Positions 21,322 through 24,641 of a DNA stretch of 64,000 nt are shown piece by piece. Each line of letters starts with the position of its first letter. Position 1 is the first letter of the stretch. Both the position numbers and the translations under genes were made by a program. The notes beneath the pieces are model-generated. The model ran no database searches, was not told the origin of the DNA, and saw only the letters and a program-made list of their open reading frames with translations. This stretch comes from an uncultured Pelagibacteraceae bacterium (GTDB lineage Bacteria > Pseudomonadota > Alphaproteobacteria > Pelagibacterales > Pelagibacteraceae): NCBI GenBank assembly GCA_902592325.1, contig CACJEC010000001.1, positions 217,819 to 281,818 on the forward strand, given 5' to 3'.

Positions 21322-21406
21322 GGGCGAATGGCGGAATTGGTAGACGCGCACGACTCAAAATCGTGTTTCGCAAGAAGTGAGAGTTCGATTCTCTCTTCGC
21401 CCACCA
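21322..21406 (+). tRNA. tRNA-Leu(CAA), CCA encoded
   Basis: Acceptor GGGCGAA/TTCGCCC; anticodon loop CTCAAAA; long variable arm; GTTCGATTC T-loop. Confidence 0.93.
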
Positions 21407-21413
21407 AAATTTT

Positions 21414-23117
21414 ATGAAACTAAACAATTATAATAATCTTTTAGAATTATTTTTTTCAAAATATGAAACTGAAGATAAAAATAGTATTTTTTTACAATCT
21501 TTAAAAGATAAAAATTTAAATTTTACATGGAATCAAACTTATAATTGTATTCAAAAATTATCAAATCATATCCAAAAATATATTTCTTCAAAAGACAGAT
21601 GTTTATTAATTTCAGAAAACAGACCTGAATGGTTGATTTGTGATTTAGCAATAATGCTTGCCGATGGAATTACAGTGCCAGCATACACAACATATACCGA
21701 AAGAGATTATGAGTATCTTATAAATGATTGCAAACCTTCAGTAATAATAGTTTCTGATAATTCTCAATTTGAAAAAGTTAAAAATATAATTTCAAAAGTA
21801 GATTTTATTAAAAATGTCATAAGTTTTGAAAATATTGAAATAAGTGAGATTGAAATAACAAATATAAATAAAATTTTTGAAGAAACTAATTATTTTGAAA
21901 AAAATTTTCATAAAATAAACTTAACAAGAAAAGATATTTCATGCATAATTTATACCTCGGGCACTCAAGGAAACCCAAAGGGAGTAATGTTGAGTCATGG
22001 AGGTATATTAAATAATTGTGAAGGTTCTGCAGAGTTACTTAGTGAAATAATTAATTATAAACCTAAATTCCTTACTTGGCTGCCATTATCTCATTCATAT
22101 GAACACACAGTTCAATTTGTACAGATAGCTGTAGGAGCTAAAGTATTTTATGCTGAAAGTATAGATAAGTTAGTTAAGAATATGAATGATTGTAGTCCAG
22201 ATATCATGACTGCCGTTCCTAGATTTTATCAAAATCTGTACCAAAAAATATCGTCTACTTTTAATAAAGCTACAGGTATAAAAAAGTTTCTAGTTCAATC
22301 AACTTTAAATTTAGGTGAAAAAAAACTTTTAAAAAATTCTCTTTCTTTATACGAAAGACTTATTAATTTAATTTGCGAAAAATTAGTAAGAAAAAAAATT
22401 AAGTCACAATTTGGTGGTTCACTCAAAGCATTTATATCTGGAGGAGGTGCACTAGATTATAAAGTTGGTGTTTTTTTAAATGCCATTGGTCTACCTACTT
22501 TACAAGGATATGGTTTAACTGAAACATCACCGGTTGTAAGTTGTAACTCAATTAAAAATATTAGAATAGACACAGTTGGTCCTCCATTCAAAGGCAATGA
22601 GGTAAAGATTGCAGACGATGGTGAAATTTTAATAAAAGGTGAAAATGTAATGTTGGGTTATTGGAATAATTCAGTTGAGACAAACAAAGTAATTAAAAAT
22701 GGATGGCTAAATACAGGTGATATTGGTCATTTTGATAACGGTTTTTTAAAAATTACTGATAGAAAAAAGGATATTCTTATTACCCCTGGAGGAGAAAATA
22801 TTTCACCCATTAAAATAGAAAATGATTTAATAAAAATAGAATTTATAGAGCAAGCATTAGTTTATGGAGATAATAAACCGTTTTTAGTAGCATTATTTGT
22901 TTTAAGTAGTGATAAAAAAGATATTAGTAATGAAGTTATTAACAATGAAGTTGAAAAAATAAATAAACATTTAAGTAAAATAGAAAAAATAAAAAAATTT
23001 ATTGTTGTGGATAAACAATTTTCAATTGAAAATGGTTTAATGACACCAACTTTAAAACTAAAAAGATATAAAATAATTCAAGAGTATAAGAATCAATTAG
23101 AAAAACTTTACAAATAA
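21414..23117 (+). CDS. Long-chain acyl-CoA synthetase (AMP-forming)
   Basis: IIYTSGTQGNPKGVMLSH, QGYGLTETSPVVS, GWLNTGDIGHFDNGFLKITDRKKDILITPGGENI. Confidence 0.93.
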   Translation: MKLNNYNNLLELFFSKYETEDKNSIFLQSLKDKNLNFTWNQTYNCIQKLSNHIQKYISSKDRCLLISENRPEWLICDLAIMLADGITVPAYTTYTERDYEYLINDCKPSVIIVSDNSQFEKVKNIISKVDFIKNVISFENIEISEIEITNINKIFEETNYFEKNFHKINLTRKDISCIIYTSGTQGNPKGVMLSHGGILNNCEGSAELLSEIINYKPKFLTWLPLSHSYEHTVQFVQIAVGAKVFYAESIDKLVKNMNDCSPDIMTAVPRFYQNLYQKISSTFNKATGIKKFLVQSTLNLGEKKLLKNSLSLYERLINLICEKLVRKKIKSQFGGSLKAFISGGGALDYKVGVFLNAIGLPTLQGYGLTETSPVVSCNSIKNIRIDTVGPPFKGNEVKIADDGEILIKGENVMLGYWNNSVETNKVIKNGWLNTGDIGHFDNGFLKITDRKKDILITPGGENISPIKIENDLIKIEFIEQALVYGDNKPFLVALFVLSSDKKDISNEVINNEVEKINKHLSKIEKIKKFIVVDKQFSIENGLMTPTLKLKRYKIIQEYKNQLEKLYK

Positions 23118-23239: not shown

Positions 23240-23302
23240 TTGACATAACTTGTTTAAAAAAATAAAAATAGGTTAACAACGAATCACTTTGATTCGTTTA
23301 AC
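23240..23302 (+). promoter_or_regulatory. Promoter (TTGACA - 17 nt - TAAAAA) and 5' stem-loop AACGAATCA-CTT-TGATTCGTT
   Basis: -35 at 23240-23245, -10-like at 23263-23268; perfect 9-bp hairpin 23278-23298 flanked by GTTA/TAAC; SD gggag further downstream. Confidence 0.6.
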
Positions 23303-23320
23303 TAAAACAGGGAGCTAAAG

Positions 23321-23401
23321 ATGGCTAAAAGAAGAAAAAAAGCTGCTAAGAAAAGCAAAAAGAAAGCTAAGAAAAAAGCTAAGAAAAGAAGAAGAAGATA
23401 A
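23321..23401 (+). CDS. 26-aa Lys/Arg/Ala mini-protein, not in ORF track
   Basis: MAKRRKKAAKKSKKKAKKKAKKRRRR*; SD gggag before ATG; own promoter and strong terminator. Confidence 0.7.
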   Translation: MAKRRKKAAKKSKKKAKKKAKKRRRR

Positions 23402-23420
23402 TAACTTAGTATTCTTTATT

Positions 23421-23466
23421 AAAAACGCTTCTCATAACGATTTACGTGTGAGAGGCGTTTTTTTTT
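23421..23466. terminator. Rho-independent, apparently bidirectional terminator
   Basis: AAAAACGCTTCTCA / TGAGAGGCGTTTTT stem (one G-U) followed by T-run; lies between convergent genes. Confidence 0.88.
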
Positions 23467-24358
23467 ATTCATCAATAGGATCTGCTTCGTCAGTTTCTCC
23501 AATTGGTTCTTCAGTTGGTAATTCAGTTGTAGTTTTTGAAGTCATGGCTGGAGCTTGAGGTTGTTGAGTAATTCCTTGATTTCTTTTTAAGGCCTTATCA
23601 AGTTTTTTTTGAGTGTCTTCCATGGATACACCGAGTACAATTTGAAATTCTGAAAGAATTCTTTCATAAGCTTTTTCAAATAACTGACGTTCACTATAAG
23701 ATTGATCAACCATAAGATCATCACCCTTATTTAAGTCCCTAACAACTTCAGCTAATTCATAAATTTTTCCAGAAGATATTTTAGTTTCATATTCTTGAGC
23801 TCTTCTACTCCACATTGATCTTTTAATTTTTGGTTTACTTTTTAAAATTGAAACACATTTGTTGACTTGGTTTATCGTTGCCAAAGGACGTAAATTTGAT
23901 TGTTTATTTACAGGAACCATTCCATTAGCTTTGTCTTTTTCAAATTTAATAACGTATGTTTCAACATCAATTCCACCAATATTAATTTTTTTAAATTCAG
24001 TGATTTGACCCACTCCATGCTTTGGATAAACAACATAATCTTTAACTTTATATTCTTTTTTTGCAGTTTCTTGTTTTTTAACTTTTTTAATTTCTGGTTT
24101 TATTTCATTACTTTTTGTTATTCGTAAATTTTCATTATTTTTTTTAATTTCATTAGTTTGTTGTTTTTTATCAATTTTCGTTAATTTTCTTTTTGTTACT
24201 TTTTTTATAATTTTTTTTGATGAAACCTTTTTTGCTTTTTGGACTTTAGATACTTTTTTCTTTGTAACTTTTTTTTTTGTAACTTTTTTCTTTGTTTTTT
24301 TGGGAGTATTTTTTTTAAAGGTTTTCTTTAAAATATTTTTCAAACTTATTTTGCTCAT
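23465..24358 (-). CDS. carD: CarD-family transcriptional regulator with Lys-rich N-terminal tail and acidic C-terminus
   Basis: [22 protein letters not shown]...[13 protein letters not shown]...[29 protein letters not shown]-term [15 protein letters not shown]; start at MSKISLKN. Confidence 0.88.
24251..24295. repeat. Three tandem 15-bp repeats encoding TKKKV in carD
   Basis: tacttttttctttgt / aacttttttttttgt / aacttttttctttgt. Confidence 0.85.
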
Positions 24359-24641
24359 TTTTATATTTTTCGTGATCCGGTGGAGGATCTTTTTTCTCAC
24401 TTATGTTTGGCCAGATTTCAGAATACTCTTTATTAATTTCTAGCCATTTTTCGCTACCTGGTTCTGTATCAGCTTTGATTGCATCAACTGGACATTCAGG
24501 CTCACAAACGCCACAATCTATACACTCATCCGGTTTAATTACAAGCATATTTTTGCCTTCATAAAAGCAATCTACTGGACAAACATCTACACAGTCCATC
24601 AGTTTACATTTAATACATTTGTCATTTACAATGTAAGTCAT
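24315..24641 (-). CDS. fdxA: FdxA-type 7Fe ferredoxin
   Basis: [29 protein letters not shown]...[16 protein letters not shown]. Confidence 0.94.

Follow-up and report, generated by a model that had tools for sequence, protein, structure and literature searches.

A conserved SAR11 mini-gene for a lysine/arginine-rich peptide and the complementarity of its start region to the RF01814 (rhtB) RNA

Layout of the mini-gene unit and conservation of its elements

The window, i.e. the whole stretch of 64,000 nucleotides analysed here, derives from an assembly of the SAR11 group (0.93 Mb, 75% complete), and the named genomes carrying the identical start sequence and ORF belong to the Pelagibacteraceae. 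Synteny comparison placed a mini-gene downstream of the gene for an acyl-CoA synthetase and in convergent orientation to carD. The features are as follows, with the supporting evidence given last.

21414–23117, + strand: long-chain acyl-CoA synthetase-like gene, upstream, used as synteny anchor (synteny; named by sequence reading, not by family search)
23240–23268, + strand: sigma70-type promoter, −35 TTGACA (23240–23245), 17-nt spacer, TAAAAA (23263–23268) (sequence, 167/167 units, column conservation)
23278–23298, + strand: 5'-terminal RNA hairpin AACGAATCA-CTT-TGATTCGTT, 9 bp with a 3-nt loop, arm CGAATC nearly invariant (folding, comparison)
23310–23314, + strand: Shine-Dalgarno (SD) sequence GGGAG (AGGGAG(N)TAAA(R)ATG once in most genomes of the genus)
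23310–23328, + strand: putative target site GGGAGCUAAAGAUGGCUAA, complementary to the RF01814 loop of sister genomes (complementarity, duplex scan)
23321–23401, + strand: ORF for a 26-aa K/R/A polycation (conserved across the genus, pN/pS 0.16)
23424–23466, + strand: intrinsic terminator (folding; stem stronger as mini-gene RNA in 94/95 units)
23465–24400, − strand: carD, convergent neighbour with a Lys-rich N-terminal extension (Pfam CarD_C, CarD_TRCF_RID)

A tRNA-Leu(caa) gene (21322–21406, + strand) immediately precedes the acyl-CoA synthetase gene, and the short ORFs listed at its position are spurious.

The original prediction had described 23240–23466 as a self-contained unit for a mini-protein, and all of its elements, i.e. 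the promoter, the perfectly paired 9-bp hairpin, the gggag SD sequence, the 81-bp ORF and the GC-containing terminator (about 23424–23466), were recovered where it had placed them. A promoter scan detected the promoter-like site of the mini-gene, but such sites are no commoner in the window than in shuffles, and the terminator was not flagged when the window was scanned for terminators alone. The case for both signals therefore rests on their conservation. TTGACA is found 39–42 nt upstream of the CGAATC hairpin in 167/167 units, so that the hairpin is 5'-terminal in the transcript. The unit finder behind this count and behind the leader counts required CGAATC, and comparisons made free of this requirement show CGAATC as well. 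At the other end, G-U pairs make the terminator stem stronger as RNA of the mini-gene than as RNA of carD in 94/95 units. The mRNA would carry, within a few nucleotides of its 5' end, a hairpin that stabilises it, and would stop at its own terminator. No tRNA or Rfam element scored over threshold within the unit.

The predicted transcript folds better than 200 of 200 shuffles (z −4.6). Among 116 unique leaders, the six core pairs of the hairpin are all kept in 96 and five of the six in 16. In a check of the hairpin for covariation, as originally proposed, pairing proved to be backed by wobble changes and retained folding, but not by double compensation, since CGAATC hardly varies in the 5' arm. 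Two families share the hairpin: in the folds of 147 of 152 leaders most of the CGAATC arm is paired, and the fold z is about −3. In genera g5 and g12, the 3' arm is replaced while the 5' arm is kept (CGAATCACTTAAA..TTTAAGTGA). CGAATC(A), at 23280–23286 in the window, is invariant throughout both families, including leaders with a different pairing partner; a second constraint, at the level of sequence, therefore acts on this arm. A DNA operator or a CcrM GANTC site was considered as the main reading of the palindrome and was rejected: in genera g2 and g4 the arm GATTTG keeps RNA pairing through G-U but breaks both the DNA palindrome and GANTC, and the loop length varies.

The ORF product, MAKRRKKAAKKSKKKAKKKAKKRRRR, has 26 residues and a net charge of +19; K and R make up 73% and the remainder is A, S and M. 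The window contains one ORF with at least 70% K/R, as compared with none in 200 second-order Markov simulations of it. A DNA search with the 241-bp unit gave a match in 196/201 genomes of the genus, the weakest matches not being specific. Of 70 loci that were read, 68 carry the unit with an intact ORF and two are cut by the contig end. The encoded peptides comprise 21–35 aa within the genus and follow the pattern M[A/P]KRRKKA..AKK..RRRR. Indels among these ORFs are whole codons, third-position changes are in excess, and pairwise counts (the pairs not being independent) yielded pS 0.17 and pN 0.028, i.e. a ratio of about 0.16. Sequence comparison thus establishes that the unit is a real gene, conserved and constrained at the protein level. 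The strong conservation of 5' hairpin and terminator would also suit a locus that is mainly a non-coding RNA with an incidental ORF. The 68/68 intact ORFs, the codon-multiple indels, the third-position excess and the pN/pS of 0.16 leave this a very remote prospect, and ORFs interrupted in relatives with the hairpins persisting, named beforehand as the finding that would speak against the gene, were not seen among the 68 complete units.

The start pattern AGGGAG(N)TAAA(R)ATG occurs once in most genomes of the genus and twice in a few. Seventeen genomes of the genus lack it: 13 of these also lack CarD, indicating missing sequence, in two (G004, G443) the sequence ends at a contig edge, and in two (G447, G425) the mini-gene is present with a changed start region. 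The exact SD-to-ORF pattern had no match in viral contigs, which were searched for phage copies. At ~80 bp, this core gene is below usual gene-calling length limits. Moreover, tryptic peptides of the mini-protein have at most three residues, which would render it invisible to standard proteomics.

Relatives outside the genus and likeness to histone H1 tails

Versions of the mini-protein were also found beyond the genus of the window. They comprise 23–24 aa in genera g2 and g4, while genera g5, g9 and g12 have intermediates of 31–50 aa, of which some contain AP or KPA motifs. The sister family f2 shares the promoter geometry and the hairpin, and its equivalent slot opposite carD encodes proteins of 60–99 aa consisting of KKKAAPKKK/KKAAKRK repeats. 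These syntenic, H1-like counterparts strengthen the likeness to histone tails noted originally. Given their H1-tail-like sequence, their position and the promoter geometry and hairpin in common, we conclude that the 26-residue product is most likely a small version of an H1-like polycation that would bind nucleic acid. Neither short nor long forms matched a Pfam or NCBIfam profile, and the mini-gene is not filed as a member of the H1-like polycations because no curated profile matches. Low complexity makes sequence homology to H1-like proteins unprovable; the link consists of synteny, leader and composition. Literature searches made for SAR11 H1-like or small basic proteins returned nothing.

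The short form was likely derived from the long form by shrinkage, although the searches returned no outgroup copy that would prove this direction: 30 loci inspected in other alphaproteobacteria have no such gene beside carD, and a class-wide profile search of alphaproteobacteria, which was insensitive and missed even the window's own genome, detected no outgroup copy.

Tiny basic proteins are also known from the ribosome, i.e. bTHX and eL41, which the mini-protein resembles in size and charge. In favor of a ribosome-associated or ribosomal microprotein, the strong SD sequence and 5' hairpin would also fit high expression. However, members of this class should have a fixed length and site-specific residues, whereas the family described here ranges from about 20 to 99 aa, shows repeat expansions and interchanges K and R, unlike a protein that occupies a fixed ribosomal site. 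There was also no match to PDB chains, although this counts for little with a short, low-complexity query. We therefore regard a ribosomal role as unlikely and favor the nucleoid-type polycation.

Two observations concern neighbouring and related functions. The Lys-rich N-terminal extension of CarD has a median of 106 aa with 38% K in the window's genus and 107 aa in the sister family, as compared with a 17.5-aa median for 30 other alphaproteobacteria; in Pelagibacterales it represents a second H1-tail-like segment, encoded next door to the mini-gene. The window's genome also carries three HU/IHF-family genes (L301, L302 and L303, on contigs C11, C23 and C3), so the mini-protein would not be the sole nucleoid protein.

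Complementarity of the RF01814 loop to the mini-gene start

The 14-mer GGGAGCTAAAGATG also matches a second class of SAR11 loci, whose opposite strand was recognized as the Rfam RF01814 rhtB RNA (79.9 bits). The loop of this RNA, UUAGCCAUCUUUAGCUCCC, is the exact complement of positions 23310–23328 of the window. RF01814 was then searched for in 80 genomes, 61 from the genus and 19 from outside, applying the gathering cut-off of 55 bits. Matches over cut-off were obtained in 50 of the 61 genomes of the genus, among them each of the 12 with a completeness of 95% or more, and in none of the 19 genomes outside; weak matches in the latter lack complementarity and were attributed to chance. In the complete genome G226 (1,308,759 bp), for example, the ATG of the mini-gene is at 410512 and the rhtB RNA at 1297616–1297698. 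The assembly that contains the window is 75% complete, and RF01814 was not detected in it; for this genome we infer the partner from the relatives. In many genomes the next best match of the RF01814 model is the antisense strand of the mini-gene start. In the window this strand scores 28–31 bits, which is below cut-off, and is not a member of RF01814; a weak rhtB match on the minus strand of the unit (E 0.005), for which chance had been considered, turned out to be this antisense match itself.

Contiguous complementarity between the RF01814 loop and the SD-to-start region of the mini-mRNA amounts to 14–20 nt in the 41 genomes in which it was measured; nine more were read by eye. In the predicted fold, the seed of the RNA is 98–100% unpaired. 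When the RF01814 RNA of genome G090 was compared with 6394 segments of the window, the mini-gene start emerged as the best duplex site, with −42.1 kcal/mol as compared with a mean of −14.2 (sd 5.0). Since the start pattern occurs once in most genomes and twice in a few, the mini-gene is probably the main target of the RNA.

Both partners covary in trans at the single variable core position of the match. All 45 genomes with AAAGATG in the mRNA have CATCTTT in the RNA, and all five with AAAAATG (G162, G079, G181, G126, G143) have CATTTTT. On the best tree this corresponds to four changes, two of which are forced by well-supported branches, and both RNAs always change jointly; the independent events are few, 2–4, and a sign test cannot reach 0.05 with this number. 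MPK- versus MAK-type peptides provided a second covariation test, in which no compensation was seen: genomes of the MPK type (ATGCCT) retain a +4 mismatch, and the RNA has not changed with it. Moreover, there is a G-U pair in the match in G084 and an edge mismatch in G425. Natural compensatory alleles exist for the pair of RF01814 and mini-mRNA.

The conserved match might also reflect a shared element, i.e. the rhtB locus carrying a copy of the mini-gene start that is seen by the same protein or ribosome, with no RNA-RNA pairing being involved. Indeed, the opposite strand of rhtB reads GGGAGCTAAAGATGGCTAA, the same as the mini-gene start. However, the ORF in that direction is not conserved (MAKKDY.., MAR*), the RF01814 model scores about 67–90 bits on the antisense strand versus about 22–33 bits on the other, stem changes such as AGGGCTATC pair (through G-U) only in the antisense RNA, and the orientation of the promoter-like element is that of the antisense strand. 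A shared element is quite unlikely in view of these data, and pairing of the antisense RNA with the mini-mRNA is preferred.

The surroundings of the RNA were inspected in 49 listed genomes, and the corresponding feature is given below.

L370 1417–1499 (− strand) and L312–L361: rhtB RNA near a LysE-family exporter gene (spacing to the start codon)

By eye, most of these genomes show a promoter-like TG.TAT..T immediately before the RNA, and a U-tract directly follows the hairpin in only 7/49 by a strict pattern. In 34/49 genomes, a LysE-family (PF01810) gene starts 4–14 nt after the end of the hairpin (32 nt in one case); as it directly precedes this gene, the RNA may also act as its leader or regulator. 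In the other 15, no RhtB match follows in the available sequence and the loop complementarity is intact. This arrangement bears on reverse regulation, in which the K/R-rich mini-mRNA would act on the LysE/RhtB exporter leader and couple basic-amino-acid supply to export. The position of the hairpin before the exporter gene and an ORF that is about three quarters Lys and Arg would fit, but complementarity is retained in the 15 genomes in which no exporter match follows, and the mini-gene occurs outside the genus, where RF01814 was not found. We consider this direction of control improbable, more so than a shared element, and retain the mini-mRNA as the regulated partner.

The rhtB element was described by Meyer et al. 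(2009) as a potential motif of unclear function, located mainly beside rhtB, with a U-tract in about half of the elements (PMC2704228). The parts of that description considered here name no target and do not mention an antisense match to the mini-gene start (PMC2704228), and relative to them the complementarity reported here appears to be new.

Proposed function and comparison with known systems

SAR11 ranks with the most abundant groups of bacteria on Earth, and few regulators are known in it. Taken together, the data suggest, with a probability of roughly 0.6, that the SAR11 mini-gene encodes an H1-tail-like polycation whose translation is blocked by the RF01814 antisense RNA. The product would be a disordered polycation of 21–35 aa in the window's genus with a charge of about +19, the short counterpart of the 60–99-aa H1-like protein that occupies this position in the sister family, and most likely binds and condenses nucleic acid, DNA or RNA, as H1 tails do. 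In the genus, its translation is most likely controlled by RF01814, a separately encoded hairpin RNA, whose unpaired loop would pair with SD sequence and start codon of the mini-mRNA. Ribosome binding would be blocked because the loop covers both, with repression as the predicted outcome. The earlier suggestion of a dual-function sRNA as such found no support; instead, a separate RNA encoded in trans appears to target the mRNA. This proposes a first mRNA target for RF01814, a family left unexplained by its 2009 description, and the mini-protein becomes a candidate for a place among the smallest proteins that resemble histone tails. More tentatively, and possible rather than expected, the antisense RNA dedicated to a minimal histone-like polycation could double as leader of a lysine-type exporter, tying compaction of nucleoid or RNA to the balance of basic amino acids. 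If this dual role were true, the orphan rhtB RNA would gain a function.

The putative protein side compares with the H1-like Lys/Ala/Pro-rich proteins, i.e. the C-terminal tails of Pseudomonas AlgP and PhaF and chlamydial Hc2, with which it shares a low-complexity K/A(/P) polycation that is expected to be disordered. Length variation driven by repeats has been reported for Hc2 (PMC2848022), and Hc2 and the family of the mini-protein both vary in length through repeats. The KPAA tail of AlgP binds DNA (PMC9239181). However, this tail is a repeat region of 154 aa, whereas the mini-protein is far shorter, with 21–35 aa in total and no other domain, and in the window's genus it consists of K, R and A almost without P, unlike the Lys/Ala/Pro-rich proteins. 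The RNA side resembles trans-encoded bacterial sRNAs that block ribosome binding sites: shared traits are the separate locus, the hairpin with a single-stranded seed, and predicted pairing over SD sequence and start codon. RF01814 differs from such sRNAs by probably having one main target, by 14–20 contiguous pairs and covariation in trans, and by a location that often would make it the leader of a LysE exporter gene as well.
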